NCBI GenBank assembly: GCA_907163225.1
Contig: OU015322.1
Coordinates: forward strand, 1,961,001-2,025,000
From: an uncultured Rhodocyclaceae bacterium
Lineage (GTDB): Bacteria; Pseudomonadota; Gammaproteobacteria; Burkholderiales; Rhodocyclaceae
Direction of reading: 5' to 3'
Length of the DNA stretch: 64,000 bases
Of this stretch, positions 3,647 to 63,403 are shown in pieces. The translations under genes were made by a program, and so were the position numbers. How positions within the stretch are numbered: position 1 is the stretch's first letter; each line of letters starts with the position of its first letter. Below the pieces are notes generated by a model. The model was not told where the DNA came from, searched no databases, and saw only the letters and a list, made by a program, of their open reading frames with translations.

Positions 3647-6012
3647 GTTTCCTTTTCTGAAAGCACTCCCGGGTGATTTTCGCCGCTCGCCGACCGTGCG
3701 GCAAGCCAGCGTTGGCGCGCAACCCAGGCCTGACCGAGCGCCAGGCCGCCATCGTTGGGGGGTGCCTGACGGGCTTCGAGCAATTCAATGCCTGCGGATT
3801 GAAAATGGGCGCGCAGGGCCGTCATCAGGACGGCGTTCATCGCGCAACCACCGCCGATGATGATTTTTGCGTCTTTTTCCCGGTTGACCGCGGGGCCAGC
3901 CCTTGTTTCCATGGTTGCGGAAGCCACCCAGTCAGCCAGCCCGGCGGCCACGGTGGCGTGAAAGAGGGCGGCACCGTGGCCGGCGTCGTCCTTGCAAGCC
4001 ATCAGTGCCGGCAACATCGGCGAAAAATCGAGGATGGCGCCGCCTTCCAGCAAGGCGTAGCCGCCGGGCAACGGCTCGACCGGGCCGAATTTGGCGGCCA
4101 GACCTTCCAGCTCCATCGCAGCCTGCCCTTCAAAATGCATCAGGTCGCGCACGCCGAGCAGGCCGGCTGCGGCATCGAACCAGCGACCGAGGCTGGTCGT
4201 CGGCGGACAGCGCAGCTTGCGGGCGAGCATGGTAAGCAGCGGGCCGGGGTCGCGCGTCGGGTAATACTGCTTGATCCAGCCGCCGACACGGTAGCCGAGG
4301 CCGGCGCCGTACAGGGCGGAGACAGCCATCCGCCACGGCTCCCTGGCGGCACGGTCGCCGCCGGGCATGGCCAGCGGACTGAGGTGACCAAGGCGCTCGC
4401 AGTTGGCGCCATCGAGACGCAACAGCTCGCCACCCCAGGCGCCACCATCGGGGCCAAGACCGACGCCGTCCAGCGCCAAGCCGATAATTGGCTCGTTGAC
4501 ACCCTGTTCTGCGCAGATGGCTGCAATATGGGCGTGATGATGGCCAACAGCGACGGCTGGAATCCCCAGCTTTTCGGCCAGCCGCAGGGCCAGATGGGTC
4601 GATGGAAAATCCGCGTGCAGGTCGTGGGCGATCAGGTCGGGCTTGACGTCCAGAATGGCCAGCAGGTGCTCGACCGTTTCTTCAAGAAATCCAATGGCGG
4701 CAACGTTGTCGAGGCTGCCGATGTGCTGCGACAAAAAGGCTTCGCGGCCTTTCATCACGCAAACGGTGTTCTTCAGGTAGCCGCCCAGCGCCAGAACCGT
4801 CGGGCCGTCGTCAGCCAGCTGGATCGGCACCGGCACGTAGCCGCGGGCGCGGCGGATGAAGGCCGGGCCTTGCGGCGTGGCCCGCACGACTGAATCGTCG
4901 CAACGGATGACAATGTCGCGGTCGTGGCACAGGATGGCATCGGCGATGCCAGCCAGACGCTCAAGTGCCTCGTCGTTGCCGATGACCAGCGGTTCGCCAT
5001 TTGGGTTGGCGCTGGTCATGACCAGCAGCAGGTCGCTAGCCGCATTCATCCAGTCAGTACCGCCCGGCCGGCCGGCCGCTTCGTGCCAAAGCAACAGATG
5101 CAGCGGCGTGGACGGCAGCATGACGCCAAGCCAGGCGAGGCCGGGCGCGATGCCTTTGAGTTCGACGCCGACCTTGGGGCAGAGGACGATGGGTGCGGCG
5201 ACGCTTTGCAGCAAAGCCAGTTCGGGCTCACCAATTTGCGCATGGGCGGCCAGTGAAGCAGCATTCAGACCCATCACGGCAAAGGGCTTTTCCTCGCGTT
5301 GCTTGCGCTCGCGCAGCTCGGCGACGGCGCCTGCATGCCGCGCATCGCAGGCGAGGTGGAAGCCGCCGAGGCCTTTGATCGCGACGATATTGCCAGAACA
5401 CAGCAGGCGCAGGGCTTCGGCGACCGGGTCGCCGGGCAACAGCTGGCCATCAGCGGCGAGCAGGCTGAGTTGCGGGCCGCAATCCGGACAGCAGGTCGTT
5501 TCGGCGTGAAATCGGCGGTCAGATGGCGCCTGGTATTCAGCAGCACAGGGCGCGCACAGCGAAAACCTGGCAAGGCTGGTCTGCGCCCGGTCGTAAGGAA
5601 TGCGCCGACTGACCGTGTAGCGCGGGCCGCAATGGGTGCAAGTGGTGAAGGCGTAACGCCAGCGGCGGTTGGCCGGGTCGAGCATGTCGGCGATGCACGC
5701 CGGGCAGATGGCAGCATCGGGGCCAATGGTGGTTTTGATCTCGCCGGCCGCGCTGTCGAGGATGGCGAACCCGTCGCCCGTCACGTCGGCCGCTTCGTCC
5801 TCGATGGCATCAATACGCGCCAGCCGCGGCGCTTCCAGATGCAAACGGCTTTTGAATTTTGGCCAGTTTTTCCCGTTGACCGCAGCAATCACCCCGGCAC
5901 CATCGTTGCGCACCCAGCCGCTTAGCCCGAGTTCGTTGGCCAGCCGCCAGACGTAAGGGCGAAAACCGACGCCTTGCACCTGCCCTCGAATGCGGAACAG
6001 CCGGCCGTTCAC
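3640..6012 (-). CDS. hypF: Carbamoyltransferase HypF
   Basis: HypF converts carbamoyl phosphate and ATP to carbamoyl-adenylate and passes the carbamoyl group to HypE. The 790-residue protein has an N-terminal acylphosphatase domain (RIRGQVQGVGFRPYVW), two zinc-finger sets (CPACIADM with CTHCGP; CAPCA with CCPDCGP), a YrdC-like domain near residues 200-380 (KGLGGFHLACDA), and a Kae1-like C-terminal domain with GHHHAHIAA and GGGCAMNAVL. Two copies of the dispersed repeat lie inside it and are read through in frame. One encodes AAVNGKNWPKFK in the acylphosphatase domain; the other encodes AGPAVNREKDAK just before GGGCAMN. It follows hypB by four bases. Confidence 0.95.
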   Translation of the reverse strand: MNGRLFRIRGQVQGVGFRPYVWRLANELGLSGWVRNDGAGVIAAVNGKNWPKFKSRLHLEAPRLARIDAIEDEAADVTGDGFAILDSAAGEIKTTIGPDAAICPACIADMLDPANRRWRYAFTTCTHCGPRYTVSRRIPYDRAQTSLARFSLCAPCAAEYQAPSDRRFHAETTCCPDCGPQLSLLAADGQLLPGDPVAEALRLLCSGNIVAIKGLGGFHLACDARHAGAVAELRERKQREEKPFAVMGLNAASLAAHAQIGEPELALLQSVAAPIVLCPKVGVELKGIAPGLAWLGVMLPSTPLHLLLWHEAAGRPGGTDWMNAASDLLLVMTSANPNGEPLVIGNDEALERLAGIADAILCHDRDIVIRCDDSVVRATPQGPAFIRRARGYVPVPIQLADDGPTVLALGGYLKNTVCVMKGREAFLSQHIGSLDNVAAIGFLEETVEHLLAILDVKPDLIAHDLHADFPSTHLALRLAEKLGIPAVAVGHHHAHIAAICAEQGVNEPIIGLALDGVGLGPDGGAWGGELLRLDGANCERLGHLSPLAMPGGDRAAREPWRMAVSALYGAGLGYRVGGWIKQYYPTRDPGPLLTMLARKLRCPPTTSLGRWFDAAAGLLGVRDLMHFEGQAAMELEGLAAKFGPVEPLPGGYALLEGGAILDFSPMLPALMACKDDAGHGAALFHATVAAGLADWVASATMETRAGPAVNREKDAKIIIGGGCAMNAVLMTALRAHFQSAGIELLEARQAPPNDGGLALGQAWVARQRWLAARSASGENHPGVLSEKETC
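3862..3900 (+). repeat. Dispersed repeat copy 1 (inside hypF)
   Basis: This copy has a T-rich left half, then CCCGGTTGACCGCGG. The match continues rightwards: GGCCAGCC followed by TTGTTTC is shared with the copy at 55888, suggesting a unit of up to about 55 bp. It is antisense to hypF and is translated there as AGPAVNREK. Confidence 0.7.
5851..5890 (+). repeat. Dispersed repeat copy 2 (inside hypF)
   Basis: One of the best copies, with GAATTTTGGCC, a T run, then CCCGTTGACCGCAGCA. It is antisense to hypF and encodes AAVNGKNWPKFK in the acylphosphatase domain. It is about 80% identical by eye to the intergenic copy at 33561. Confidence 0.75.
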
Positions 6013-6016
6013 CGCC

Positions 6017-6955
6017 TTATTTGACCGCCAACTGGCGCTCCAGCTCGGTCACTCGACGTTTCAGGGCAGCAACGGTTTCCGAACGCTTGGCGCGTTGGGC
6101 TTCCAGACCGGATTGAATCCAGCTCACCCAGGCACTCAAGCCGTCACCGCTACTCGCCGAAACGCGGAAGATGGTCAGGTTCGGATTCACGCGACGGGCA
6201 TTGGCTTCAGCTTCATCGGCATCGTATTCAAGATAGGGCAGCAGGTCGCATTTGTTCAGCAGCATGACATCGGCCGCCGCGAACATGTCCGGGTATTTGA
6301 GCGGCTTATCCTCGCCTTCGGTCACCGACAGGATGGCCACCTTGTGGTGTTCGCCGAGGTCGAAAGCAGCCGGACAGACCAGATTGCCGACGTTCTCGAT
6401 CAGGAACAGCGATTCGTCGGCCGGCTGCAGGCGGGCCATGGCGTGGCCGACCATGTGGCCGTCAAGATGACAGCCCTTGCCGGTGTTGATCTGCAGCGCC
6501 GGCACACCGGTGGCGCGGATGCGCTCGGCGTCGTTGGAGGTCTGCTGATCACCCTCGACAACGCTGATCGTCAGCTTGTCCTTGAGCAGCTCGATGGTTT
6601 TCACCAGCAGCGTGGTTTTGCCCGAACCGGGGCTGGACACCAGATTAAGCGCAAAAATGCCGCGCTCGTCGAAGGCCCGCCGATTGGCCGTGGCGTAGGC
6701 GTTGTTTTTGGACAAAATGTCCTGCTCGATCTGCACCATGCGCGACTGGCTCATGCCCGGCACATGCGCGCGCGCCGGGCCGGTGCCGTAGTCGAGGTCG
6801 CCGGAAACGGCGGGTTCGTGGTCATGGCGGTGGGCGGGCTTGTACCCGTGGCCATGCGCATGCGTGTGCACCGTTCCATCTGCATGAACGTGGGTGTGTT
6901 CGTGCCCACCTTCGATCCTGGTTTCCCCTTCGCCGCAGCCACAAACTGTGCACAT
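6017..6955 (-). CDS. hypB: Hydrogenase nickel incorporation GTPase HypB
   Basis: HypB is the GTPase that, with HypA, delivers nickel to the hydrogenase large subunit. The 312-residue protein begins with a CxxCxC nickel site ([11 protein letters not shown]), followed by a histidine-rich stretch (about residues 18-48, many HxH pairs) that can store or bind nickel. The GTPase domain has the P-loop [11 protein letters not shown] near residue 112 and NKCDLL as the base-specificity motif. The normal operon position between hypA and hypF, four bases from hypF, supports the call. Confidence 0.95.
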
Positions 6956-6985
6956 TGCCCTGTCTCCTTTTCGATCCTGGTCAAA

Positions 6986-10478: not shown

Positions 10479-12473
10479 ATGATTCCTGAACTCGGCCATT
10501 TCGCCCTGATCCTCGCTGCGCTGGTTGCCCTGATCCTCGGCACCCTGCCGTTGATCGGCGCCCACAACAACCGTCTGGCCTGGGTCGCCGTAGCCCGTCC
10601 GGCGGCTTCGGCCTTGGCACTGCTCGTTACTTTCTCGTTCGCCTGCCTGACGCAGGCTTTCGTGACCAACGATTTTTCGGTGGTCTACGTCGCCCAGCAT
10701 TCCAACTCGCTGCTGCCGCTGCAATATCGCGTCGCCGCTGTCTGGGGCGGCCATGAAGGCTCACTGCTGCTGTGGATGCTGATGTTGACCTGGTGGGCGT
10801 TTGGCGTCGCCATGCTGTCGAAGCAGTTGCCGGAAACAATGGTCGCCCGCGTCCTCGGCACGCTAGGCCTGGTCGCCTTCGGCTTTCTGCTTTTCATCCT
10901 GATCACGTCGAGCCCGTTCGAGCGCCTGCTGCCAGGTGCCGCCGAAGGGCGCGACCTCAACCCACTCCTGCAGGACTTCGGGCTGGTCATCCACCCGCCA
11001 CTGCTTTACATGGGCTACGTCGGTTTCTCGGTCGCTTTCGCCTTCGCCATCGCTGCGCTGCTCTCCGGTCAGTTGGACGCCGCCTGGGCGCGCTGGTCGC
11101 GACCATGGACGATGGCCGCCTGGTGCTTCCTGACCCTGGGTATCGCCATGGGTTCGTGGTGGGCCTATTACGAGCTGGGCTGGGGTGGCTGGTGGTTCTG
11201 GGACCCGGTCGAGAACGCTTCGTTCATGCCCTGGCTGGTCGGTACGGCGCTGATTCATTCGCTGGCCGTCACCGAAAAACGCGGCAGCTTCAAGAACTGG
11301 ACGGTGCTGCTGGCGATCTCTGCCTTCTCGCTGTCGCTGCTCGGCACCTTCCTCGTCCGTTCCGGCGTGCTGACTTCGGTGCATGCCTTCGCCACCGATC
11401 CGCGCCGCGGCATTTTCATCCTGATCTTCCTCGTCGCCGTCATCGGCACCTCGCTCGCGCTGTTCGCCTGGCGTGCCCCGAAGGTCGGTCTGGGCGGCCG
11501 TTTTGCGCTGGTCTCGCGCGAATCGTTCCTGCTCACCAATAACGTGCTGCTTGTCGTTGCCTGCGCCACCGTGCTGCTCGGCACGCTCTACCCGCTGCTT
11601 ATCGACGCACTCGGTGTCGGCAAGATTTCGGTCGGACCGCCGTATTTCAATGCCGTTTTTGTACCGGTCATGGCGCCGGTACTGTTCCTGATGGGCGTCG
11701 CTCCCTTCGCCCGCTGGAAGGAGGCGTCGATCCCGGAAATCACCCGCACCGTGCGCTGGGCGATGGTTGCCGCCGCCGTTGTCGCCATCGCGCTGCCGCT
11801 GGTTTACGGCCAGTGGAGCGCGCTGACTGCACTCGGCATTCTGCTGGCCGCCTGGGTGACGTTCACGACGCTGACCGCTTTCGTCGAGCGCGTCCAGCAC
11901 ACCCGCGCCGGCCAGTCTTTCCTGACTGCCGCATTGAAGCAGCCGCGCAGCTTTGTCGGCATGTGCATCGCCCACTTCGGCATTGCCGTTTTTGTCGTTG
12001 GCGTGACCATGGTCAACAGCTTCCAGGACGAAAAAGACATCAAGATGGCACCCGGCGAGTCGGTCGATGTTGCCGGCTACAGCTTCAAGTTCAATGGTGT
12101 CAGGGAAGTTCAAGGGCCGAACTACGTGGCGGCGCAGGGCGACTTCGATCTCACGGTCGACGGGAAATTTCGCCTGAAAATGAACCCCGAAAAACGCAAC
12201 TACGCCTCATCCGGCATGCCGATGACCGAAGCCGCCATCGACGCCGGCTTCCTGCGCGACGTCTATGTCTCGCTCGGCGAACCGATCGAACGCGACAAGC
12301 CGGAGGCCGAATGGGCCGTGCGCGTCTATTACAAACCCTTCGTCGACTGGATCTGGGGCGGCTGCGTGCTGATGGCACTGGGCGGCCTGCTCGCCATGCT
12401 CGATCGCCGTTACCGCGCCAAGTCCCGTACTTCGGCGACCATCACTACCCCGGCAGGAAGCCAACACGCATGA
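10479..12473 (+). CDS. ccmF: Cytochrome c heme lyase subunit CcmF
   Basis: CcmF is the large integral-membrane component of the heme ligation complex with CcmH and CcmI. The 664-residue protein has about 14 to 15 transmembrane helices and the WWD signature WGGWWFWDPVENASFMPWL near residue 230. Length is normal. The stop overlaps the ccmG start (ATGA). Confidence 0.95.
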   Translation: MIPELGHFALILAALVALILGTLPLIGAHNNRLAWVAVARPAASALALLVTFSFACLTQAFVTNDFSVVYVAQHSNSLLPLQYRVAAVWGGHEGSLLLWMLMLTWWAFGVAMLSKQLPETMVARVLGTLGLVAFGFLLFILITSSPFERLLPGAAEGRDLNPLLQDFGLVIHPPLLYMGYVGFSVAFAFAIAALLSGQLDAAWARWSRPWTMAAWCFLTLGIAMGSWWAYYELGWGGWWFWDPVENASFMPWLVGTALIHSLAVTEKRGSFKNWTVLLAISAFSLSLLGTFLVRSGVLTSVHAFATDPRRGIFILIFLVAVIGTSLALFAWRAPKVGLGGRFALVSRESFLLTNNVLLVVACATVLLGTLYPLLIDALGVGKISVGPPYFNAVFVPVMAPVLFLMGVAPFARWKEASIPEITRTVRWAMVAAAVVAIALPLVYGQWSALTALGILLAAWVTFTTLTAFVERVQHTRAGQSFLTAALKQPRSFVGMCIAHFGIAVFVVGVTMVNSFQDEKDIKMAPGESVDVAGYSFKFNGVREVQGPNYVAAQGDFDLTVDGKFRLKMNPEKRNYASSGMPMTEAAIDAGFLRDVYVSLGEPIERDKPEAEWAVRVYYKPFVDWIWGGCVLMALGGLLAMLDRRYRAKSRTSATITTPAGSQHA

Positions 12474-13054: not shown

Positions 13055-13539
13055 AGCGTCACGCACTGATCGCACTATTCATTTTTGGCTCTTTTTTCGG
13101 GTCGACCGCAGCAATGGCCGACGCCGCGACCGAAGCGGCAACCGCCGTTGATCCGGTGGCCGAAAAGCGTCTGCAAAAGCTCTCCGAAGAGCTGCGCTGC
13201 CTGGTTTGCCAGAACCAGACCATCGCCGACTCCAATGCCGAGCTGGCGCAGGATCTACGGCGCGAAGTCCGCACCATGATCAAGGACGGCAAAACCGACC
13301 AGGAAATTGTCGACTTCATGGTTGTCCGCTACGGCGATTTCGTGCTCTATCGCCCACCGGTCAAGGGCATCACGCTGCTCCTCTGGGGCGGCCCGGTAGC
13401 GCTCATGTTGCTCGGCCTGTTCATCCTCGTGCGCTACCTGCGCCGCCGTGCAACCCGCATCAATGCCGAAGACCAGCCGCTGTCGGCTGACGAGACCAGC
13501 CGCGCCGACGCGATGCTCAAGGAAATCGACCAGAAATGA
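13051..13539 (+). CDS. ccmH: Cytochrome c maturation protein CcmH (CcmL type)
   Basis: CcmH is a membrane-anchored thioredoxin-like protein that reduces apocytochrome c and passes it to CcmF. The 162-residue protein has a signal sequence, the LRCLVCQNQTIADS active-site motif near residue 47 and a C-terminal transmembrane helix near residues 108-128. It overlaps ccmG and ccmI by four bases each. A copy of the dispersed repeat forms much of the signal peptide (FGSFFGSTAAMADA). Downstream, ccmI is separate rather than fused. Confidence 0.92.
   Translation: MKRHALIALFIFGSFFGSTAAMADAATEAATAVDPVAEKRLQKLSEELRCLVCQNQTIADSNAELAQDLRREVRTMIKDGKTDQEIVDFMVVRYGDFVLYRPPVKGITLLLWGGPVALMLLGLFILVRYLRRRATRINAEDQPLSADETSRADAMLKEIDQK
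13078..13119 (+). repeat. Dispersed repeat copy 3 (ccmH signal peptide)
   Basis: ATTTTTGGC, a T run, then CGGGTCGACCGCAGCA. It is in sense orientation to ccmH and encodes FGSFFGSTAA, the hydrophobic core and end of the signal peptide. TTGACC is changed to TCGACC, as in the copy at 55888. Confidence 0.65.
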
Positions 13540-14385: not shown

Positions 14386-14862
14386 ATGGTAGACCTCGCC
14401 CGTCGTGGCTTCTTCCGCGGTCGACCGCGTCCCCGGGCCGAAAAACGGCCACCCTGGGCGCAGCTGGAAGCTGACTTCATCGATCGTTGCACGCGCTGCA
14501 ACGACTGCCTGAAAGCCTGCCCCACACAAATTCTCGTCGTCGGAGATGGCGGCTATCCGACTGTCGATTTCAGCCTTGGCGAATGCACGTTTTGCGGTGA
14601 CTGCATCAGTGCTTGCCAGCCCAAAGCCTTGCGCCGCGATCCCGAACAGGCTGCCTGGCCCTACAAGGCATCAATAGGCGAAGACTGCCTGCCCAGTCAG
14701 GGCGTCGAGTGCCGCGTCTGCGGCGACTTCTGCGATACCCGCGCCATCCGCTTTCCGCCTCGACTGGGCGGCAGCCCGCTGCCAGAGATCGACGCTGAAC
14801 GATGCAACGGTTGTGGTGGCTGCGTGGCGCCCTGCCCGGTGAGCGCCATCAGCATCCGCTAG
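14386..14862 (+). CDS. napF: NapF-type ferredoxin
   Basis: A 158-residue iron-sulfur protein of the NapF family, which in nitrate-reducing bacteria helps assemble or load the catalytic subunit NapA. Four cysteine groups are visible: CTRCNDCLKACP, CTFCGDCISACQP, CRVCGDFCDT and CNGCGGCVAPCP, enough for several 4Fe-4S clusters. The N-terminus (ARRGFFRGR) is basic, with no hydrophobic signal. It starts seven bases after ccmI, so it probably shares its transcript. No other nap gene is in the window, so its partner lies elsewhere. Confidence 0.85.
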   Translation: MVDLARRGFFRGRPRPRAEKRPPWAQLEADFIDRCTRCNDCLKACPTQILVVGDGGYPTVDFSLGECTFCGDCISACQPKALRRDPEQAAWPYKASIGEDCLPSQGVECRVCGDFCDTRAIRFPPRLGGSPLPEIDAERCNGCGGCVAPCPVSAISIR

Positions 14863-16717: not shown

Positions 16718-16742
16718 TTGTCTGTCGCAGTTGACCGGGCTT

Positions 16743-16779
16743 CCCACGGTCAACCGGAAAAAACGGCGAAAATTCAAAT
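16743..16779 (-). repeat. Dispersed repeat copy 4 (intergenic, abuts pccA stop)
   Basis: Read on the minus strand: GAATTTTCGCCG, six Ts, CCGGTTGACCGTGG. It begins directly at the end of pccA, between the stop codon and the terminator hairpin. It is one of the three clearly non-coding copies and close to the consensus. Confidence 0.75.
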
Positions 16780-18788
16780 CACTCGAATTCGATGATGATC
16801 TGATCTACCGTCAGGCTCTCACCTGCCGATGCCGAAATTTTCTTCACCTTGCAGTCCTGGTCTGCCTTGAGAATATTTTCCATCTTCATGGCTTCGATAA
16901 CCGCCAGTTTTTCACCGGCCTTGACGTCCTGACCAACCTTGACCGCGACTTCACGCAGCAGGCCCGGCATCGGGGAGATCAGGAACTTCGACAAGTCGGG
17001 CGCCTGCTTCTCCGGCATCAGCGCCAGCAACTCAGCAGCACGGGCACTCATCACCATGAAGTCGGCACGCGTGCCCCAGTGGAACAGCGAGTATTTCGTC
17101 TTGTGCCGTTCAACCTGCAGCGTGAATTCCTGACCGTTACAGGTACCCAAAAACAGCGATTCGCCGAGTTTCCAGCTCGAACGCAGGGCATAAGGCTTGC
17201 CCTTGTACTCGATGTCGTAGCCGCCGTCGACCAGACGGGCGGTGACCGGATGGTACTGATTGCCCGCCGCATCGAGGCGAACCACCATCCAATTGTCGCT
17301 GACCAGCCGCTCGTGACCCTGCAACTGGCCGGAAATCGACGCTGAGCGGTCGGTAAAAGCACGGTAAACATAGGCGGCGACGGAGACCAGCAGGGCCGGA
17401 TCGTCGTGCGGCACCATCGACGCATCGAAGCCCTTCGGGTACTCCTCGGCGATGAAACCGGTGTTGAAGTTGCCGGACTGGAAACGCTTGTGCTGCATCA
17501 GCGCGGCCTGGAACGGAATGTTCGAGGAAATACCACGAATGACGAAGCCATTGAGCGCGTCACGCATGCGCTCAATGGCGCTGTCGCGATCCTTGGCGTG
17601 CACGATCAGCTTGGCAATCATCGAGTCGTAGAACATCGAAATTTCGCCACCGTCGTAAACACCTGTGTCGACGCGAGTCGTACCACCGGCGTCAGTCGCT
17701 TCCTTGGGCGGCTGGAACTTGACCAGACGACCGGTGGAGGGAAGGAAGCCACGGAACGGGTCTTCAGCATTGATCCGGCATTCCATGGACCAGCCGTTGA
17801 GCTGAACCTGATCCTGCGTAATCGGCAGCTTTTCACCGTAGGCAACGCGGATCATCAGCTCGACAAGGTCAACGCCGGTGATCAGTTCGGTGACCGGATG
17901 CTCCACCTGCAAACGGGTGTTCATTTCCAGGAAGTAGAAGCTCTTGTCGGAACCAACCACAAACTCAACCGTACCGGCTGACTCATAGTTCACGGCACGG
18001 GCCAGCGCTACAGCCTGCTCGCCCATGGCCTTGCGCATGGCCGGATCGACGAAGGGCGACGGCGCCTCTTCAATAACCTTCTGGTGACGGCGCTGGATCG
18101 AGCAATCACGCTCGTTCAGGTAAACGTAGTTGCCAAAGGAGTCGCCAATCAGCTGAATTTCGATGTGGCGCGGTTCCAGCACATACTTTTCGATGAAGAC
18201 GCGGTCATCGCCGAAAGCGTTCTTGGCTTCATTGACGCAGGACGAAAAGCCCTCGTGGGCTTCCTTGTCATTGAAGGCAACGCGCAGACCCTTGCCACCA
18301 CCGCCGGCCGAGGCCTTGATCATGACCGGATAACCGATGCCCTGAGCGATCTTGACGGCTTCATCCGGACCGGAAATGGCTTCGTTGTAGCCCGGGATGG
18401 TATTGACCTTGGCTTCCAACGCCAGCTTCTTGGACTCGATCTTGTCGCCCATCTTGCTGCTGGAATAGTGCTTCGGGCCAATGAACTTGACGCCCTCTTC
18501 TTCCAGACGGCGGGAGAACTCGGAGTTTTCCGACAGGAAGCCGTAGCCGGGGTGCACGGCTTCAGCGCCGGTCTGCTTGCAGGCCGCGATAATCTTGTCG
18601 GCGACCAGATAGGATTCCTTGGAGGCAGCCGGCCCGATACAAACGGCTTCGTCAGCCAGATCGACGTGCAGCGCATCTTTGTCGGCTTCGGAATAGACAG
18701 CAACCGTCAGGATGCCCATTTTGCGGGCTGTTTTAATGACGCGGCAGGCAATTTCGCCGCGGTTTGCAATCAGAATTTTCTTGAACAT
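16779..18788 (-). CDS. pccA: Propionyl-CoA carboxylase alpha subunit (biotin-dependent)
   Basis: This subunit carboxylates biotin with ATP and bicarbonate; the beta subunit transfers the carboxyl group to propionyl-CoA, giving methylmalonyl-CoA. The 669-residue protein has a biotin carboxylase domain (FKKILIANRGEIACRVI at the start, ATP-grasp loop GGGGKGLRVA near residue 165), a linker domain, and a C-terminal biotinyl domain with EAMKMENIL. The start at 18788 has a GGGAG ribosome site; a longer frame upstream has no merit. The neighbouring mutase supports propionyl rather than acetyl specificity. Confidence 0.92.
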   Translation of the reverse strand: MFKKILIANRGEIACRVIKTARKMGILTVAVYSEADKDALHVDLADEAVCIGPAASKESYLVADKIIAACKQTGAEAVHPGYGFLSENSEFSRRLEEEGVKFIGPKHYSSSKMGDKIESKKLALEAKVNTIPGYNEAISGPDEAVKIAQGIGYPVMIKASAGGGGKGLRVAFNDKEAHEGFSSCVNEAKNAFGDDRVFIEKYVLEPRHIEIQLIGDSFGNYVYLNERDCSIQRRHQKVIEEAPSPFVDPAMRKAMGEQAVALARAVNYESAGTVEFVVGSDKSFYFLEMNTRLQVEHPVTELITGVDLVELMIRVAYGEKLPITQDQVQLNGWSMECRINAEDPFRGFLPSTGRLVKFQPPKEATDAGGTTRVDTGVYDGGEISMFYDSMIAKLIVHAKDRDSAIERMRDALNGFVIRGISSNIPFQAALMQHKRFQSGNFNTGFIAEEYPKGFDASMVPHDDPALLVSVAAYVYRAFTDRSASISGQLQGHERLVSDNWMVVRLDAAGNQYHPVTARLVDGGYDIEYKGKPYALRSSWKLGESLFLGTCNGQEFTLQVERHKTKYSLFHWGTRADFMVMSARAAELLALMPEKQAPDLSKFLISPMPGLLREVAVKVGQDVKAGEKLAVIEAMKMENILKADQDCKVKKISASAGESLTVDQIIIEFE

Positions 18789-21397: not shown

Positions 21398-23548
<2,151 letters not shown>

Positions 23549-26596: not shown

Positions 26597-27373
26597 ATGA
26601 GCACCATTGATTTTTTTCGTGACGGCGAAATCGCCACGCTAACCCTGAACAACCCCGGCAAACTCAATGCCATCAACCTCGGGATGTGGAACGCGCTGGC
26701 TCAGAAAATGGCCGAAATCAGCGTTGACCGCAGCATTCGCTGCGTCGTGCTGCGCGGCGCTGGCAGCGAAGCCTTCGCCGCCGGGGGCGATCTGGAGGAA
26801 TTCGTTACCGGGCGCGCAACGCTCGAACAGGCGCTGCATTACCACGGGCAGGTCGCCCTCGCCCTGCAGGCCATCGACACCTGCCCGCACCCAACCGTGG
26901 CACTGATCCAGGGCGCCTGCATTGGTGGCGGGCTGGAAATTGCTGGCGTTTGCGATTTCCGCATCTGTGGTGCGTCAGCTCGTCTTGGGGCGCCAATCAA
27001 TCGACTGGGTTTTTCGATGTACCCCGGCGAAATGGAAGGCTTGCTGCGCCTGGCCGGCCCGGCCGTGATGAAGGAAATCCTGCTCGAAGGGCGGATCCTG
27101 ACGTCGGCCGAGGCTTACGCCAAAGGGCTGGTCACCCGAGTCGTAGCTGATGAGCAAACCGTCGACGAAGCCTATGCCACAGCCCGCCGGATTTGCGCCG
27201 GAGCGCCACTGGTCGCCGGTTGGCACAAGCAGTGGATCAGCCGATTGCTGGAAGGAGGGGCACTGACTGACGAAGAAAAAGCCGCGTCGTTTGCCTTCCT
27301 CGACACCGAGGATTACCGCGAAGGACTCGCCGCCTTTCTGGAAAAGCGCAAACCGGAATTCAAGGCGCGCTGA
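26597..27373 (+). CDS. Enoyl-CoA hydratase/isomerase (crotonase) family protein
   Basis: A 258-residue crotonase-fold protein. The oxyanion-hole regions are visible: GAGSEAFAAGGDLEEF near residue 57 and ALIQGACIGGGLEIAGVCDFRI near residue 103. The first catalytic glutamate of classical hydratases (normally in an APE motif) is replaced: the sequence reads GAPINRLGFSMYPGEMEG, leaving a glutamate only in the second region. Activity may thus be isomerase, decarboxylase or other. It overlaps the convergent TauE gene by 14 bases. Confidence 0.82.
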   Translation: MSTIDFFRDGEIATLTLNNPGKLNAINLGMWNALAQKMAEISVDRSIRCVVLRGAGSEAFAAGGDLEEFVTGRATLEQALHYHGQVALALQAIDTCPHPTVALIQGACIGGGLEIAGVCDFRICGASARLGAPINRLGFSMYPGEMEGLLRLAGPAVMKEILLEGRILTSAEAYAKGLVTRVVADEQTVDEAYATARRICAGAPLVAGWHKQWISRLLEGGALTDEEKAASFAFLDTEDYREGLAAFLEKRKPEFKAR

Positions 27374-33555: not shown

Positions 33556-33560
33556 AGCAT

Positions 33561-33600
33561 TTCAATTTTGGCCATTTTTTCCGGTTGACCGTGGAATGGC
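33561..33600 (+). repeat. Dispersed repeat copy 6 (intergenic, btuD-cobO)
   Basis: TTCAATTTTGGCCA, a T run, then CCGGTTGACCGTGG. This non-coding copy starts five bases after the btuD stop and is the closest to my consensus, so I use it as the reference. It lies within the B12 transcript. Confidence 0.8.
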
Positions 33601-33636
33601 CTTCCACCTCAAAAATCGAATCTTTCCGAGCGAACC

Positions 33637-47648: not shown

Positions 47649-48389
47649 TTATTTCTTCTTCAAACGCTCGCGGGCGGTTTCCGCAGCCGGCGCACTAGGG
47701 TATTTGGCCAGAACGGACTCAAGCGAACGCTTGGCGCCAGTCGGGTTACCCATTTCCTGCTGGCAGGTAGCAATCGCCAGCCAGGCATCCGGTGCCTTGG
47801 GACTATCGGCGTATTTGGTGGTAACGATGCTCTGCGCCTCGATGGCGCGCTTGCAGTCGCGCTGGGCGTACCAGGCGTTGCCGAGCCAGTACTGGGCATT
47901 CGGCGCCAGCGAACTGTCCGGGTATTTCTGGACGAAAGCGCCAAAACCGGCGGCGGCTTCCTTGTACTTGCCGGCCTTGAACTGGTTCAGCGCGGCTTCG
48001 TAATCCTGGCTTTCCTTGGCCGGATCGTTGGCCGCTTTCAAATTTGGCGGATTTTCCGGGTTGACCGCAGCAGCCGGCGTACCGCCCGCTTCAAACTTGC
48101 GCAGACGGGTGTCGAGGTCAAGGTAGAAGTCCTGCTGGCGCTTCTTGGCCGTCTCCAGCTCGTACCCGAGCGTTTCGATCTGGCCGCGCAGGCGGGAAAT
48201 CTCGTCGGCCTGACGCTGGATCTGACCGGCCAGATCCAGCTGCCCCTTGGCCTGTTGGTCGAATCGCGCCTCCGTCTTGATCCTGAGATCGGTGACCTGG
48301 CGACGCGCTTCGTCGTCGTCAAAAACACCGGCGTGGGCCGGCACGGCCCCCAGCGCGGCGATCAGAAGAGCGATTCGAACCGGCTGCAT
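47649..48389 (-). CDS. cpoB: Tol-Pal coordinator CpoB (YbgF)
   Basis: CpoB is a periplasmic protein that links Tol-Pal driven outer-membrane constriction to cell-wall synthesis. The 246-residue protein has a signal peptide (ending VPAHA), an N-terminal trimerising coiled coil (residues about 30-90) and C-terminal TPR repeats (DYEAALNQFKAGKYKEAAAGF, SSLAPNAQYWLGNAWYAQRD). The linker between them contains AAAVNPENPPNLKAAND, encoded by a dispersed-repeat copy. Confidence 0.92.
   Translation of the reverse strand: MQPVRIALLIAALGAVPAHAGVFDDDEARRQVTDLRIKTEARFDQQAKGQLDLAGQIQRQADEISRLRGQIETLGYELETAKKRQQDFYLDLDTRLRKFEAGGTPAAAVNPENPPNLKAANDPAKESQDYEAALNQFKAGKYKEAAAGFGAFVQKYPDSSLAPNAQYWLGNAWYAQRDCKRAIEAQSIVTTKYADSPKAPDAWLAIATCQQEMGNPTGAKRSLESVLAKYPSAPAAETARERLKKK
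48036..48075 (+). repeat. Dispersed repeat copy 9 (cpoB linker)
   Basis: CAAATTTGGCGG, ATTTTCC, GGGTTGACCGCAGCA. Antisense to cpoB, it encodes AAAVNPENPPNLK between coiled coil and TPR domain. Nearly the same peptide as in SelO. Confidence 0.75.
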
Positions 48390-48962: not shown

Positions 48963-50249
48963 TTATTGAAAGTACGGGCCCCAGGCCGGTTCGCGGACAT
49001 CGCCGGCGGCCACGGTGAGGCGTTGTTTGATCCTGCCATCGCTGGAGACAGCCGATAGTACGCCGCGCCCGCCGACTTCAGTGGCGATCAGGATCATGCG
49101 GCTGTTGGGTGCGAAACTGGGGGATTCATCCTTGTGCGAGTCGCTCAGCACCTGAACCTGGCGGCTGGCCAGATCCATGACGGCGAGCTGGAAGCGGCCT
49201 TCGCGGCGGCTGATGAAAGCCAGACTCTTGCCATCCGGCGACGGGCGCGGCGAAACGTTGTAGCTGCCCTCGAAGGTAACGCGCCTGGCTTCGCCGCCAT
49301 TGGCGCCAACCTGATAAACCTGTGGGCTGCCACCGCGGTCGGAGGTGAAGAAAATCGTGCCGCCATCGGCCGAATAACGCGGCTCGGTGTCGATGCCGGA
49401 TGATTGGGTGATGCGCTGCAGGCCGCTGCCATCGGCCTGAACCGAGTAAAGCTGGGAGAAGCCGTCCTTTGACAAGACGACGGCCAGCTTGCGACCGTCC
49501 GGCGACCAACCCGGGGCAGAATTGGAACCCTTGAAGTTGGCCACTATATGGCGCTGCCCGGAAGCCAGCGAATGGACGTAAACGACCGGCTTTTTCTTCT
49601 CGAAGGAGACGTAGGCGAGGCGGCCGCCATCCGGCGACCACACTGGAGAAATGATCGGCTCGCTCGAGGTCAGCGCGGTGGCGGCATTCTGGCCATCGGA
49701 ATCGGCAATCTGCAGCAGGAACTGGCCACGCGACTTGACGACGTAGGCGATGCGTGTCGAGAAGACACCTTTTTCGCCGGTCAGCTTTTCGTAGATGAAA
49801 TCGGCGATACGGTGGCCAGCGGCACGCAATTGGGCGTTGTTCGTCACATAGGCAGCGCCGCCCAGCGACACGGCCTTCTGCGTGTCGTAGAGGCGGAAGC
49901 GGGCTTCCATGCGGCCATCGGTGCTACGCGCAATGCTGCCGGAAGCCAGTGCATCGGCACCCCTGCTCTTCCAGTCACCGTAATTGACGGCGGCGTTTTC
50001 GTCGATGGCCAGCCCGGCGTTGTCAATCAGCTTGAACAGGCCGCTGCGCTCCAGGTCGGCCCGTACCGTTGCAGTGATGACGCGGGAAGCGCTCGGATCA
50101 CCGGGAAAATCGACAATGCTCACCGGAATCCGGTTGGCACCGGCGCCGGTAATCTCGATGGACAACTGGGCGGAGGCCAATCCTGCGGTCAACAGGGAAA
50201 AAACCAGAAAAATGCGGCGGGAAATTCGGGACATTTCGTTCATTTTCAA
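48963..50249 (-). CDS. tolB: Tol-Pal system periplasmic protein TolB
   Basis: TolB is a periplasmic protein with an N-terminal domain that interacts with TolA and Pal and a C-terminal six-bladed beta propeller. The 428-residue protein shows propeller repeats such as SPVWSPDGGRLAYVSF, APGWSPDGRKLAVV and EPRYSADGGTIFFTSDRGG. The signal peptide RRIFLVFSLLTAGLASAQ is formed in part by a copy of the dispersed repeat. It follows tolA by 16 bases. Confidence 0.95.
   Translation of the reverse strand: MKMNEMSRISRRIFLVFSLLTAGLASAQLSIEITGAGANRIPVSIVDFPGDPSASRVITATVRADLERSGLFKLIDNAGLAIDENAAVNYGDWKSRGADALASGSIARSTDGRMEARFRLYDTQKAVSLGGAAYVTNNAQLRAAGHRIADFIYEKLTGEKGVFSTRIAYVVKSRGQFLLQIADSDGQNAATALTSSEPIISPVWSPDGGRLAYVSFEKKKPVVYVHSLASGQRHIVANFKGSNSAPGWSPDGRKLAVVLSKDGFSQLYSVQADGSGLQRITQSSGIDTEPRYSADGGTIFFTSDRGGSPQVYQVGANGGEARRVTFEGSYNVSPRPSPDGKSLAFISRREGRFQLAVMDLASRQVQVLSDSHKDESPSFAPNSRMILIATEVGGRGVLSAVSSDGRIKQRLTVAAGDVREPAWGPYFQ
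50181..50216 (-). repeat. Dispersed repeat copy 10 (tolB signal peptide)
   Basis: Read on the minus strand: CATTTTTCTGG, TTTTTTCC, CTGTTGACCGCAGGA. In sense orientation to tolB, it encodes IFLVFSLLTAG, the hydrophobic core of the signal peptide, much like the copy in ccmH. Confidence 0.65.
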
Positions 50250-52575: not shown

Positions 52576-53408
52576 ATTTTACCTTGCGCTGCAACAATGT
52601 TCTGTAACAATCTGTTTCCACGCCAATTGTGGCGTTTTCCCGGCAAGATCGCATCCCACACCGGCACCATCGGCGCGAGGCATAGCAGCGCCCACAAGGC
52701 ACCGTTCGGCCGATAGTACAAAAACTGCCAGCAGAAGGCGGCGCAGGCGACGAGAGCAACGTGCAAACGTCGCGCCAGCGGGCGATCGGGCAGTGTCATC
52801 GGGTCGGAGATCATGAAGAAGGCGAACAGCAGCAGCGCACCGTTGAGGGCCTGATGGCACCAGATGTCCCAGCCTCTTTCAAAGGTATGACCGAGGTAAA
52901 ACAGCCTTGCTGCGGTCAACCCGAGAAATGTGCCCAAAAACAGGAAAGCCGCGTCATCCCGCCGGGCCCGCTGCGCGACCAGCGCACCAAAGCCGATCAG
53001 CCAGACGGCAATGCCCAGATCGTTGCCCCACTGCCCGGGTGACACCCAGGCGCCGGGCAGCCCCAGCAAGGCAAGCCCGACGCCGAAATTGGCCGGGTTA
53101 AAAACATGCTTGCCGCGAAAGCGGATCAGAAACTTGCTACTGATCGCCAGACAGGCGACCAGCGGATGCAGCCACAGGCTATCGGCCCGCAGCAACAAGG
53201 ACAGGCCGAAGCCGGTGATCAGCGGGCTGAGGTAGCCAACGCCGATCAGCCCGAAAACCCGCAGCCAGAGGGCCTGCGTGGCCGCCGCTGAAGCAAGCGC
53301 CAAGGCCATCTGCAACGGCAACAGGCTGAAATCGCGCAGCAGCACGCCGGCCGTCAGCAAAACTGCCTGAAAGGCGATCTGGAATAACCGGGCGTCGAGC
53401 CCCTTCAC
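52566..53408 (-). CDS. RnfD/NqrB-like membrane protein
   Basis: A 280-residue membrane protein with about eight to nine helices, resembling the RnfD/NqrB family (GYLSPLITGFGLSLLLRADSL, FRGKHVFNPANFGVGLALLG, MISDPMTLPDRP). RnfD proper carries a covalently bound flavin on a threonine in an SGAT-type motif; I do not see that motif here, so the role may differ. It starts with GTG and overlaps ybgC by ten bases. The DUF2330 gene lies 34 bases upstream. The two look like a pair. Confidence 0.78.
   Translation of the reverse strand: MKGLDARLFQIAFQAVLLTAGVLLRDFSLLPLQMALALASAAATQALWLRVFGLIGVGYLSPLITGFGLSLLLRADSLWLHPLVACLAISSKFLIRFRGKHVFNPANFGVGLALLGLPGAWVSPGQWGNDLGIAVWLIGFGALVAQRARRDDAAFLFLGTFLGLTAARLFYLGHTFERGWDIWCHQALNGALLLFAFFMISDPMTLPDRPLARRLHVALVACAAFCWQFLYYRPNGALWALLCLAPMVPVWDAILPGKRHNWRGNRLLQNIVAAQGKMWR
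52905..52944 (-). repeat. Dispersed repeat copy 11 (inside RnfD-like gene)
   Basis: Read on the minus strand: GTTTTTGGGC, ACATTTCT, CGGGTTGACCGCAGCA. In sense orientation, it encodes FLGTFLGLTAAR within a membrane helix. Leu-Thr-Ala-Ala is common in such helices, so coincidence is possible. Confidence 0.5.
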
Positions 53409-54885: not shown

Positions 54886-55986
54886 TTATTCGTCGGCCAG
54901 CAGGTCGCGGACGATGGCGCTGTTTGGCTCGGACAGCCCTAGGTGACGATAGACAGCCGGCGTCGCGATGCGACCACGCAGCGTCCGTTGCAGGTAGCCC
55001 TGCTGGATCAGGTAAGGCTCCAGCACGTCTTCGATGGTGTCGCGTGCTTCACCGATGGCCGCCGCAATGTTGTCCACGCCGACCGGGCCACCGCCGAATT
55101 TGTCGATGATGGCGGAGAGCAGTTTGCGGTCCATGATGTCCAGCCCGGCGGGGTCGACGTCTAGCATGTGCAGCGCGGCGTCGGCGACTTGGCGCGTGAT
55201 GTTGCCGTCGGCCTTGACCTCGGCGTAGTCGCGGACGCGGCGCAGCAGGCGGTTGGCAATGCGCGGCGTACCGCGCGAGCGCTTGGCGATTTCGAATGCA
55301 CCTTCCGGGTCGATCGGTGCGTTGAGCAACGAGGCCGAGCGAGTGACAATGCTTTTCAACTCCTCCGCGGTGTAAAACTCAAGGCGGGCGACGATGCCGA
55401 AGCGGTCGCGCAGCGGGTTGGTCAACATACCGGCGCGGGTGGTTGCGCCGACCAGCGTAAACGGCGGCAGGTCGAGCTTGACCGAACGGGCGGCCGGGCC
55501 TTCGCCGATCATGATGTCGATCTGGAAGTCTTCCAGCGCCGGGTAAAGAATTTCTTCGACGACCGGGCTGAGACGGTGAATTTCGTCGATGAACAGGACG
55601 TCGTGCGGTTCGAGATTGGTCAGGATGGCGGCGAGGTCGCCGGCGCGTTCGAGCACCGGGCCGGAGGTCTGCCGCATGTTGACGCCCATTTCTGCGGCGA
55701 CGATGTGGGCCAGGGTGGTCTTGCCCAGACCCGGCGGGCCGAAGAGCAGCACGTGGTCGAGCGATTCGCTGCGGTTTTTGGCGGCCTGGATGAAGATTTC
55801 CAGCTGTTCGCGGATTTTCACCTGCCCGGTGTAGTCGGCCAGCCGCTTGGGGCGCAGGGCGCGTTCGAGCGCCTCTTCCTGCGCGGATTTCGAATTTGGG
55901 GCAATTATCCGGTCGACCCTAGGGCCAGCCTTTGTTTCTGTGGTCGTGGGAATGGCGGCCGGACTCAGCTTGTCGGTTTCAATCAT
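54886..55986 (-). CDS. ruvB: Holliday junction helicase motor RuvB
   Basis: RuvB is the AAA+ ring motor for branch migration with RuvA. The 366-residue protein has Walker [13 protein letters not shown] near residue 80, Walker [10 protein letters not shown], sensor ATTRAGML and the C-terminal winged helix. It is about 15-20 residues longer than usual at the N-terminus. The normal start MIETDKL is separated from the normal continuation [22 protein letters not shown]-type segment by [18 protein letters not shown], and the dispersed-repeat copy covers that insert. It overlaps the perM-like gene by four bases. Confidence 0.95.
55888..55940 (+). repeat. Dispersed repeat copy 12 (ruvB N-terminus)
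   Basis: GAATTTGGGGCAATTATCC, then GGTCGACC and, to the right, GGGCCAGCCTTTGTTTC, which repeats the right flank of the copy at 3862. Antisense to ruvB, it encodes [16 protein letters not shown]. Confidence 0.7.
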
Positions 55987-57038: not shown

Positions 57039-57616
57039 CAGACCTTCGACAGCAGTTTGAGCGCCGCCCGGATGCCATCCGAGGTACCGATATCGGCCGG
57101 CAGCTGCTTCATCGCCGAGGCCGCTTCCTTCTCGTTGTAGCCGAGGGCGAGCAGGGCGTTGGAAATATCCTGTTTTGCGTCGTCGACCGCAGCATGCAGC
57201 GAAACGCCGGTAGCGTCGGCCAGCTTGCCTTTCAACTCAAGCAAAAGGCGTTCGGCCGTTTTCTTGCCGATGCCGGGAATCTTGATCAGCCGGCCCAGTT
57301 CCTGCTGCGCGATGGCGGCCGACAGGTCATTGACCGACAGACCGGAGAGCACCGACAAGGCCGTGCGTGCGCCGATGCCGGACACTTTCAACAACTGGCG
57401 GAAGGCGAAACGCTCGGCTTCGGTCAGGAAGCCGTACAGATAATGGCCATCCTCGCGCACCGCGAAATGGGTGAGCAACTTGGCTTTTTCGCCCGCGGCC
57501 GGCAGGTTGTAGAAGGTGCTCATCGGCACGTCCAGCTCGTAGCCGACGCCGTTCACGTCGAGGACGATCTGCGGGGGATTCTTTTCGGCCAGGGTGCCGG
57601 TCAGTCTTCCGATCAT
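57038..57616 (-). CDS. ruvA: Holliday junction DNA-binding protein RuvA
   Basis: RuvA tetramers hold the four-way junction and guide RuvB. The 192-residue protein starts [14 protein letters not shown] and has the OB domain, two helix-hairpin-helix motifs ([34 protein letters not shown]) and the small C-terminal RuvB-binding domain ([16 protein letters not shown]). Length is normal. Confidence 0.95.
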
Positions 57617-58205: not shown

Positions 58206-59053
58206 TTCGGCTTCGCCACCAGATAAACGCCACTGACGGCGACCAGCATGCCGATTGCTGCGGTCAACGACAAATTTTCGCCAAAAATGAAATAGGCAAT
58301 CAGCGCCGTCGTCGGTGGCGTCAGGTAAAACAGGGCGGCGACATTGACCGCGCTGCCGCTGCGAATCAGCAGATTGAGCAGGCTGATGGCGCCGAGCGAG
58401 AGGACAAGAACCAACCAACCGAGCGCGAAGATGAACTGGCCGTTCCACTCGATTTGGTAGTCCTCGAAAATAACCACGGCAATCGCTGTCACGACCGCCG
58501 TCGGCACAAACTGAATGACCGAACCGGTGCGCAGGTCGAACTTCGGGCAAAACCGTTTTTGATACAGCGTGCCGGCCGTGATGCCGAGCAGCGCGACGAC
58601 CGCCGGGATCAGCATCGGCCCCAGCGCACCATCACCCAGCTTGCCGGAAACGACCATGCTGACACCGACAAAACCCAGCCCCAGCCCACCCCACTGGCGA
58701 GCGCTCACTTTCTCGCCAAGCAGCCAGCCAGCGCCAAACCCGGTCAGCAGCGGCTGCATGCCGACGACCAGCGCCGTCACCCCGGCCGGCAGGCCGTGCT
58801 TGATGGCCACAAAGACGCCACCGAGATAGACGGCATGGACGAGGACGCCGGAAACACCGATGTGCAGCCAGTCACGCCCCCTCTCCGGCCACGGGGCACG
58901 GGTGGCCAAGGCAATCGCAGTCATCAAGGAAATGACCAGCCCGTAGCGCGTCAGCAAAAACGACAGCGGCTCGGCGTAGGGCAGGCCAAACTTGGCGCCG
59001 ATAAAACCGGTGCTCCACAAAAACACGAAGAGAAGCGGGTAGAAACGTTGCAT
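58202..59053 (-). CDS. EamA/DMT-family exporter
   Basis: A 283-residue drug/metabolite transporter with about ten helices and two EamA repeats ([21 protein letters not shown]-type start; second repeat from about residue 150). Members export amino acids, nucleobases or other small metabolites; the substrate is unknown. It overlaps ruvC by four bases and lies four bases after the exonuclease gene, so it is an accessory gene in the yebC-ruv block. Confidence 0.85.
58253..58290 (-). repeat. Possible dispersed repeat copy 13 (inside EamA gene)
   Basis: Read on the minus strand: CATTTTTGGCG, AAAATTTGT, CGTTGACCGCAGCA. In sense orientation, it encodes [11 protein letters not shown] at a place where EamA proteins normally have a similar GE-L motif, so the match may be partly chance. 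Confidence 0.4.
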
Positions 59054-60179: not shown

Positions 60180-60905
60180 TCAGTCTTCAATGACTGCAGT
60201 GCTGTAGATTTCCTGCACGTCATCGAGGTTTTCCAGCGCGTCGAGCAGCTTCTGCATCTTCACGCCCTCCTCGCCGGCGAAGACGTTTTCGCCTTCCGGC
60301 TTCATCGTCACTTCGCCGAATTCCGGCTTGAAGCCAGCGGCTTCCAGTGCATCCTTGACGGCCATGTAGTCATTCGGCGGAGTCAGGACTTCGATCGAGC
60401 CGTCATCGTTGGTCGTCACGTCGTCGGCACCGGCTTCGATGGCGGCATCCATCAGCGCGCTTTCGTCGGTGCCCGGCGCGAAAATCATCTGGCCACAGTG
60501 CTTGAACTGGAAAGCCACACAGCCGTCGGAGCCCATGTTGCCGCCGTACTTGGAAAAAGCATGGCGAACTTCGGCCACCGTGCGCACCTTGTTGTCGGTC
60601 AGGCAATCGACCATGATCGCCGCGCCGCCGATGCCGTAGCCTTCGTAGCGGATCTCGATGTACTCGACGCCTTCGAGTTCGCCCGTGCCCTTCTTGATCG
60701 CGGTGTCGATCTTGTCCTTGGGCATATTGACGCCCTTTGCCTTGTCGACCGCGACACGCAGGCGCGGGTTGAAGTTGATGTCGCCGCCGCCCATCTTGGC
60801 GGCAACGGTGATTTCCTTGGCAATCTTGGAGAAGGCGGCACCGCGCTTCTCGTCCTGGCGACCTTTACGGTGCTGGATATTGGCCCACTTGGAATGACCA
60901 GCCAT
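60180..60905 (-). CDS. yebC: YebC/TACO1-family regulator
   Basis: A 241-residue YebC-family protein starting [18 protein letters not shown], the family hallmark, with [17 protein letters not shown] near residue 75 and [19 protein letters not shown]. Members act as DNA-binding regulators or as translation factors that relieve ribosome stalling. It begins the yebC-ruvC-ruvA-ruvB order conserved in many proteobacteria. Confidence 0.95.
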
Positions 60906-62681: not shown

Positions 62682-62710
62682 GGCGGCGTCTTCCTATTTC
62701 CTGCAATCAA

Positions 62711-62986: not shown

Positions 62987-63058
62987 TCGGCCTCCTCTGG
63001 CAAAACTGACTATGTTTTTTCGGAACCCCTAATTTATCAGCAAATGCGGCGTCTTCAA

Positions 63059-63280
63059 TCAGCAACGGATACGTGTAGCACTTCCGAAATCCCGACTCAG
63101 AACCGCTACGCCGGAAATGCTGATCGGGTCTCCGACCCTGCCCGCTGCTTTGTTGGTCTTGCCGGCGAGACTGGCTTTGTTCTGGTTGATCGATGCAACC
63201 TTGTACGGACTTTCATCGGCGACGGCTGCGCTGAATCCGGAGAGGCTCATGGCGGCGAGCAGGCGTGCCCAACCGGCCAA
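63059..63280 (-). CDS. Possible small exported protein
   Basis: A 73-codon frame. From a TTG at 63280 it gives a signal-like start (AGWARLLAAMSLSGFSAAVA) followed by DESPYKVASINQNKASLAGK and a C-terminal cysteine. An ATG at 63250 would give only 63 residues and lose most of the signal. An in-frame stop lies directly before the TTG. It may be a small secreted protein or the remnant of a larger gene. Family not recognised. Confidence 0.35.
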   Translation of the reverse strand: MAGWARLLAAMSLSGFSAAVADESPYKVASINQNKASLAGKTNKAAGRVGDPISISGVAVLSRDFGSATRIRC

Positions 63281-63362
63281 TCACAGAATGAACTTAGTAG
63301 CCACATTTGATCTGCCACGGGAATGCACGTCTTTTTTGAACGAGTTTGATTGCCGCACAAAC

Positions 63363-63403
63363 TTTCATTTTCCGAGCTTTTTTCCAGTTGACCGCAGCAT
63401 TTG
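63363..63403 (+). repeat. Dispersed repeat copy 14 (intergenic)
   Basis: TTTCATTTTCCGAGC, seven Ts, then CCAGTTGACCGCAGCA. It lies in non-coding DNA and is one of three copies that cannot be explained by protein coding constraints. Confidence 0.7.

Follow-up and report, generated by a model that had tools for sequence, protein, structure and literature searches.

The window analyzed here is a 64,000-nucleotide stretch (bases 1,961,001–2,025,000) of the single 3.46-Mb contig representing the genome of an uncultured Rhodocyclaceae bacterium (assembly GCA_907163225.1), hereafter the source genome. It carries 24 sites of a dispersed repeat of ~40 bp, 13 on the plus strand and 11 on the minus strand, which lie within and between genes and are probably DNA-uptake signals. 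The sites were located with a position weight matrix (PWM) built iteratively on a sample of the genome comprising the window and 60 stretches of 20 kb spread across the contig (1.264 Mb, 36%), with a score of at least 12 as the threshold. A sequence-only reading of the window had listed 14 positions, 11 as good copies and three as plausible ones; the matrix recovered all of them (Table 1) and placed two of the plausible copies, 52905 and 58253, on the minus strand. Three copies had been described as non-coding. Those with cores at 16755 and 63386 are indeed outside called genes, whereas the one at 33583 falls within a possibly spurious open reading frame (ORF), 33562–33981. After site 16755 come an inverted half core and, next, a separate terminator-like hairpin.

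Table 1 Motif sites in the window, by window position, and comEC inserts in two related genomes (last row). CDS, coding sequence.
Feature	Position	Strand	PWM score	Remark
Weak site	2243..2284	-	19.0	
Uptake-signal-like site, core 3882	3857..3898	+	34.5	within minus-strand CDS call
Site, core 5874	5849..5890	+	49.3	top score of window
Site, core 12162	12146..12187	-	34.6	absent from the sequence-only list
Site, core 13100	13075..13116	+	44.7	
Weak site	14410..14451	-	13.7	may be chance
Site, core 16755	16739..16780	-	46.9	outside called genes
Site, core 22026	22010..22051	-	24.7	
Site, core 26722	26697..26738	+	22.2	
Site, core 28381	28356..28397	+	35.8	outside called genes
Weak site	32816..32857	+	17.3	may be chance
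Site, core 33463	33447..33488	-	29.0	
Site, core 33583	33558..33599	+	47.9	in doubtful minus-strand ORF call
Site, core 36500	36484..36525	-	30.9	
Site, core 43204	43179..43220	+	43.1	
Site, core 45348	45332..45373	-	23.4	
Site, core 48059	48034..48075	+	44.9	indel-rich surroundings; orthologues in 29 genomes
Site, core 50194	50178..50219	-	32.5	orthologues in 29 genomes
Site, core 52921	52905..52946	-	34.0	orthologous positions in 4 genomes
Site, core 55911	55886..55927	+	32.1	last core base displaced by 27-nt insertion
Site, core 57181	57156..57197	+	26.1	orthologous positions compared
Site, core 58269	58253..58294	-	43.1	orthologous positions compared
Weak site (60743)	60718..60759	+	19.1	orthologous positions compared
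Site, core 63386	63361..63402	+	39.4	outside called genes
comEC inserts	G182:C33:109608-143311 (L295, L296); G203:C1:2218693-2251157			comEC profile search

With the tracts written first, the consensus of the iterated matrix is aTTTCAATTTTGGCCgTTTTTCCGGTTGACCGYRGvAaT, which bears out the consensus first drawn by eye and extends it. The core, GT[TC]GACCG[CT][AG], reads on the opposite strand, as uptake signal sequences (USS) are usually written, [CT][AG]CGGTC[AG]AC and then the A/T tracts; the short form of the core is CGGTCRAC. Counted upstream from the first G of GGTTGACC, the tract centers lie at ~5.5, ~15.5 and ~22 bases, with a tract distance of ~10 bp, and both T runs and A runs are found. 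The repeat had been said to lack clear internal symmetry; its core CGGTYGACCG is in fact close to a palindrome and, in the variant, or dialect, of one related genome, G147, a perfect one (CACGGTCGACCGTG). The copies are alike over ~40 bp only, with no similarity beyond.

Raw matrix matches in the sample numbered 518, compared with four in a fourth-order Markov control and seven in a reversed control, both scored with the matrix trained on the same sample. Owing to the near-palindromic core, 46 of the 518 were single sites called on both strands, and 472 sites remained after merging. Scaled to the genome this gives ~1,290 sites, or one per ~2.7 kb, so that the density of about one per 5 kb guessed from the window was too low. 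Untrained patterns searched in the whole genome gave 226 matches for TTTTNCNGGTTGACCGNNG (control, 0) and 861 for the degenerate pattern WWWNNNNNNNWWWNNNNNGTYGACCGYR (reversed pattern, 1). Without prior input, words of the motif emerged as the most over-represented 9-mers in the source genome, in G161 and, in its own dialect, in G147; 174.5 kb of G150, a genome with three pattern matches, held no comparable 9-mer. Cores with A/T tracts in the sample comprised 308 perfect, 42 one-mismatch and 42 two-mismatch copies (1, 8 and 48 for the reversed control), and this large excess of perfect over single-mismatch copies is also a property of USS and of the DNA uptake sequences (DUS) of other bacteria.

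The sites are balanced between strands (221 plus, 251 minus), and the two halves of the chromosome, split at points placed roughly from sampled GC skew, hold 100/118 and 121/133 plus/minus sites. The strand bias that the sequence-only reading proposed to look for is therefore lacking, and a chromosome-segregation signal such as the FtsK orienting polar sequences (KOPS), one of the options raised there, is unsupported for want of strand bias along the replichores; another option, an uptake sequence, is well supported by the sequence evidence. Outside called genes or at their edges lie 151 of the 472 sites (32%), compared with 16.7% non-coding sequence, an approximately twofold enrichment given the rough gene calls of a simple ORF and codon-usage script. 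The remaining 321 sites, within called genes, use all six frames, unequally (136, 83, 47, 35, 12 and 8). Protein constraint, or chance matches within GC-rich genes, would be in keeping with this majority within genes and with the retention of site 60743 in some relatives that have few motif copies, but with six frames used, 32% of sites outside genes or at their edges and next to no matches in the reversed and Markov controls, the likelihood that it explains the repeat as a whole is negligible. Site 60743 itself is probably a case of protein constraint and not of signal, since its core is kept in three such low-count relatives.

Within the source genome, spacing between sites is more regular than random. 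The coefficient of variation (CV) is 0.78, below the minimum of 0.830 in 1000 uniform simulations (mean 0.954), and 18 control words of the source genome, which were the only ones within the count range, gave a mean CV of 1.09 and a minimum of 0.82. Spacings shorter than 500 bp occur at 0.42 of the exponential expectation and, after merging, spacings shorter than 200 bp number 15 against 31.6 expected. Uptake sequences are expected to be scarce in foreign DNA. For genes ranked by codon use and taken with 300 bp on each side, site density is 0.27/kb in the least typical class and 0.42–0.49/kb in the upper five of eight classes; when only the genes themselves are counted, the class of most typical codon use has a low density too (0.241, and 0.219 for the least typical). 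A role in termination was considered and rejected: 47 of 51 adjacent pairs of matches within 80 bp are in '+-' orientation and suggested inverted repeats, but most of the 30 inspected proved to be one near-palindromic site called twice, once per strand. Among the few copies of the low-count genome G112 there are two close inverted pairs (C1:665323-665394 and 3499758-3499829), perhaps retained for a different function, for example termination.

Degenerate-pattern counts were obtained for 76 genomes of the Azonexus/Dechloromonas group (Azonexaceae, Rhodocyclales), referred to here as the genus. Matches per genome range from 0 to 889; 39 of the 76 genomes have at least 100, six have 30–99 and 31 have fewer than 30. 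The motif-rich genomes are strand-balanced, and reversed controls yielded at most six matches. None of the 146 genomes of the family outside the genus (150 searched) has more than seven matches and none of the 198 genomes of the order outside the genus (200 searched) more than three, the family and order sets overlapping in part. Among the genomes searched, the motif is confined to the Azonexus/Dechloromonas genus, within which the source genome ranks first in matches per base. One member, G179, is identical over 17 kb to the record Dechloromonas sp. S06.Bin117, and among the named loci with a related pilin (best 80 of 92) the pattern occurs in Dechloromonas sp. S06.Bin117 and in one Azonexus sp. 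locus. A genome of another genus has three pattern matches within 3 kb (G079:C150:38769-41479), at least one of them of the source type, perhaps as recently acquired DNA.

The motif takes different forms in different clades, with one type in the source clade, one in G147 and one in G163, G183 and G184. The source-type dialect TTTTyCCGGTTGACCG is common to G161, G196, G197, G208 and G182. The G147 dialect is the palindromic form given above, and the sister genome G202 yielded a single site. At the place of source site 48059, G163, G183 and G184 carry CGTCGACCGCAAC and their relative G176 carries CGTCGACCGCAGC. Finer dialects are uncertain because most genomes contributed few sites.

The orthologous DNA of window positions 46.6–62.7 kb, one 16-kb region with seven source sites, was compared in 29 relatives. 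A small mobile element copying itself into new sites, such as a repetitive extragenic palindromic (REP) sequence, a miniature inverted-repeat transposable element (MITE) or an element like the Rickettsia palindromic elements (RPE), would leave empty sites in genomes that lack a copy. The sequence-only reading had offered the mobile palindromic and Rickettsia types as analogies and had suggested a search for occupied and empty sites, but none of the latter was found at the seven sites in up to 29 relatives: genomes without a copy show aligned bases instead. In 176 site-by-genome alignments the 34-bp site window is free of indels of at least 20 bp, and copies differ between relatives by substitutions and small indels. 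A second count covered 28 overlapping reference sites from six genomes, with a few loci repeated, in 692 alignments. Indels of at least 25 nt occur in five of these, all of them a single 27-nt insertion into source site 55911, without gain of a site; the site is uninterrupted in G161, G182, G196, G197 and G208. Hundreds of near-identical copies in and between genes, with a strong consensus resembling that of a young transposon family, do recall a mobile element, and RPE, REP and bacterial interspersed mosaic elements (BIME) and MITEs are likewise short repeats dispersed within and between genes. These elements spread by insertion, whereas the alignments of the motif in this one region show substitution and its similarity ends at ~40 bp, which makes a mobile element highly unlikely.

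Retention of the seven source sites differs among the relatives. The core is kept at five of six aligned sites in each of G161, G196, G197 and G208, at 6/7 in G206, 5/7 in G179, 4/7 in G175 and 2/6 in G182; at four of six in G163, G183, G199, G160, G176, G189, G155, G184 and G180; and at 3/6 in G204, 2/6 in G147, G152 and G153 and 1/5 in G202. Site 55911 was scored as not intact for every genome in this count because of the 27-nt insertion in the source. In seven genomes with at most 40 matches (G112, G154, G203, G159, G169, G181 and G150) the core is kept at none or one of the source sites, the single one being 60743. Site positions are shared within and between several clades and less so in the G147/G202 dialect. 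In the 28-site count, cores are intact at 20/20 sites in G161 and G208, 19/19 in G196 and G197, 21/25 in G175 and 9/22 in G182, compared with 0/25 in G112 and 0/24 in each of G169, G150, G154 and G203; the source genome has 20/20, five of which (all 55911) are intact only when the 27-nt insertion is disregarded.

A midpoint-rooted tree of 9,606 columns, which covers the one region and is hence a gene tree, places the low-count genomes G112, G169, G150, G154/G203, G159 and G181 among high-count relatives, with G112 as the sister of the source genome. Because of this nesting, their low counts read as repeated loss of the motif. The ratio of single-mismatch to perfect copies, after subtraction of the reversed control, is 0.21–0.38 in the source clade and G175 and ~1.7–2.5 in G112, G169, G154, G203 and G159; however, other clades also run high (0.57–2.9), so that the ratio is no clean measure of decay. 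G182 has 715 matches and only two of six aligned source sites intact, with 55911 intact too when seen from the side of its relatives; as its genome-wide share of single mismatches is not raised (0.26), no decay is claimed for it.

These comparisons bear on a further alternative, that the motif is the binding site of a genome-organizing or nucleoid protein, with phased A/T tracts that would bend the DNA. The even spacing, the A/T tracts ~10 bp apart and the presence on both strands would suit such a protein. A range of 0–889 copies within one genus, repeated loss and shifting dialects would be odd for an organizing site, and single-mismatch copies of the motif are rare, unlike those of usual protein binding sites as described in the available part of PMC1626085; this alternative appears unlikely.

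Known uptake signals share most of these traits. The available part of PMC1626085 describes USS and DUS as having no orientation bias, regular spacing, a preference for non-coding DNA and an excess of perfect copies. The USS of Pasteurellaceae (Hin, AAGTGCGGT; Apl, ACAAGCGGT) resemble the motif in having a short core flanked on one side by two A/T-rich segments, and further in their hundreds to thousands of copies without orientation bias, regular spacing, mutational origin, excess of perfect copies and clade-specific types (the available parts of PMC1626085 and PMC12616744). They differ in that their carriers belong to another class and order and in that the motif core CGGTCRAC is near-palindromic. 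The USS inner core GCGG is not matched, TGCGGT being present in part of the source copies only; the base before CGG varies, so that many copies read ACGG. By our own comparison the gap between the core and the first A/T tract is wider in the motif than in USS. Terminator pairs are rare in the motif, unlike in USS, and its density is one per ~2.7 kb compared with nearly one per kb.

The DUS of Neisseriaceae (GCCGTCTGAA and its dialects, with the receptor ComP) are betaproteobacterial like the motif, and their dialects likewise track phylogeny, with members that have no obvious DUS (available part of PMC3630211). A pilin of the ComP_DUS family is present in the motif-bearing genus as well. The sequences are unrelated, the DUS core being CTG in place of CGGTCRAC, and DUS are described in the available part of PMC1626085 as without flanking A/T motifs. 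Unlike in the DUS system, the ComP_DUS-family pilin is found here both with and without the motif and independently of dialect.

The repeat is accordingly no member, by sequence, of either the Haemophilus USS or the Neisseria DUS family, and it is probably a new case that works like USS and arose independently. We put the probability that it is a DNA-uptake signal of the USS/DUS type, of independent origin in the Azonexus/Dechloromonas group, at about 0.8, since its anatomy and evolution fit such a signal better than the rivals tested. The available part of PMC12616744 states that only Neisseriaceae and Pasteurellaceae are known to signal the uptake of self-DNA. The motif would likely represent a third independent origin, in a betaproteobacterial genus outside the Neisseriaceae, with convergent USS-like anatomy in which the A/T tracts are spaced by roughly one helical turn, dialects, repeated losses and a dense set of copies in at least one carrier without recognizable ComEA. 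What was observed is the motif's abundance and anatomy, its regular spacing in the source genome, its turnover by substitution, its dialects and losses, and a ComEC gene and pilin operon alongside; a boost to uptake, the choice of receptor and the present-day competence of the source strain are inferred.

Free DNA bearing the motif would be the preferred ligand, probably of a minor type IV pilin; retraction of the pilus would draw it in, and after passage through ComEC it would recombine with the chromosome. Such biased uptake would convert motif-free alleles into motif-bearing ones, and mutation and recombination would add copies until one was present on most of the longer DNA fragments; once the bias was lost, the copies would erode. 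If this is true, the dozens of related genomes with several dialects and many losses would allow the old question of a selfish drive by uptake bias versus selection for recombination among relatives to be tested in replicate and would offer a fresh route to the receptor. Addition of the motif to DNA might then also provide a means of transforming bacteria of the Azonexus/Dechloromonas group, members of which matter in wastewater and denitrification.

The competence machinery of the source genome includes an intact ComEC of 781 aa with DUF4131, Competence and Lactamase_B domains and an operon encoding a ComP_DUS-family pilin, a GspH/FimT-type pilin, PilW and PilY1. Of the 76 genus genomes, 71 have ComEC and 70 have ComP_DUS pilins; among the good genomes each occurs in 51/51. 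Several observations count against an uptake signal. Being universal in good genomes, the competence genes do not predict the motif count. The pilin-operon proteins of the source are only ~23–59% identical to those of relatives, source-dialect ones included (best BLAST stretches, some of them short), and since this divergence ignores dialect, none of them makes a good candidate for a dialect-specific receptor. Searches with TIGR00426 and PF12836 detected no stand-alone ComEA in the source genome, and its pyrC locus (L294) has no comEA, whereas G197 and G147 carry comEA beside pyrC. Terminator pairs are rare, an inverted core lying within ~60 bp downstream of 7 of the 518 raw matches (three for a control word). 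Small indels affect 65 of 176 site alignments compared with 38 of 697 control windows, and G147 and G202, which have high counts in another dialect, keep few source sites. Finally, judged by title and abstract opening, none of the papers listed in full-text searches of open-license literature concerns uptake sequences or natural competence in Azonexus, Dechloromonas or Rhodocyclaceae. Neither PMC5217627 nor PMC1852404 mentions Dechloromonas or Azoarcus.

Inverted pairs at terminators are common in the known uptake-signal systems and are not their defining trait. The few source sites in G147 and G202 imply that site positions are shared mainly within clades. The small indels are concentrated at sites 48059 and 55911, and their excess would be in keeping with copies in permissive positions, as reported for DUS in the available part of PMC2397512. 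A stand-alone ComEA was likewise not found in G180, which has 168 matches. As the source genome has the most matches per base in the genus, any loss of uptake in this strain should be recent, or another protein may serve in place of ComEA. A signal for biased recombination or gene conversion that acts inside the cell, such as a recombination hotspot, instead of during uptake would predict the same spread, dialects and loss and would fit a strain without ComEA. Chi-like sites are shorter and often strand-biased; the motif is without strand bias and its tracts resemble those of USS, and an intracellular signal is very unlikely.

The ComP_DUS pilin was considered as the receptor and is unsupported in this role, as its presence does not follow the motif nor its sequence the dialect. 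The minor pilin operon (L050:4435-11904) diverges strongly, its proteins mostly sharing less than 45% identity between species in which the DNA of the window region is mostly 72–90% identical. Loss of ComEC as the cause of motif loss was also considered and showed no clear link. ComEC appears broken, short or interrupted in the low-count genomes G169 (in two frames at C1:1959178-1959913), G157 (a short open frame at C8:1085724-1086371) and G203, but a long ComEC frame is present in most genomes with low counts; the gene is interrupted as well in high-count G182, and G160 (384 matches) has a stop and a contig break. G182 and G203 have 32–34 kb inserted into comEC at one shared point, profile position ~26–29 (Table 1). 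These inserts recall elements that insert into the competence genes of other bacteria. A large serine recombinase (Resolvase, Recombinase and zinc ribbon domains) stands at the start of the G182 insert; this insert is a 33.7-kb island of 52% GC, compared with 59% in the source sample, and holds 0 motif sites.

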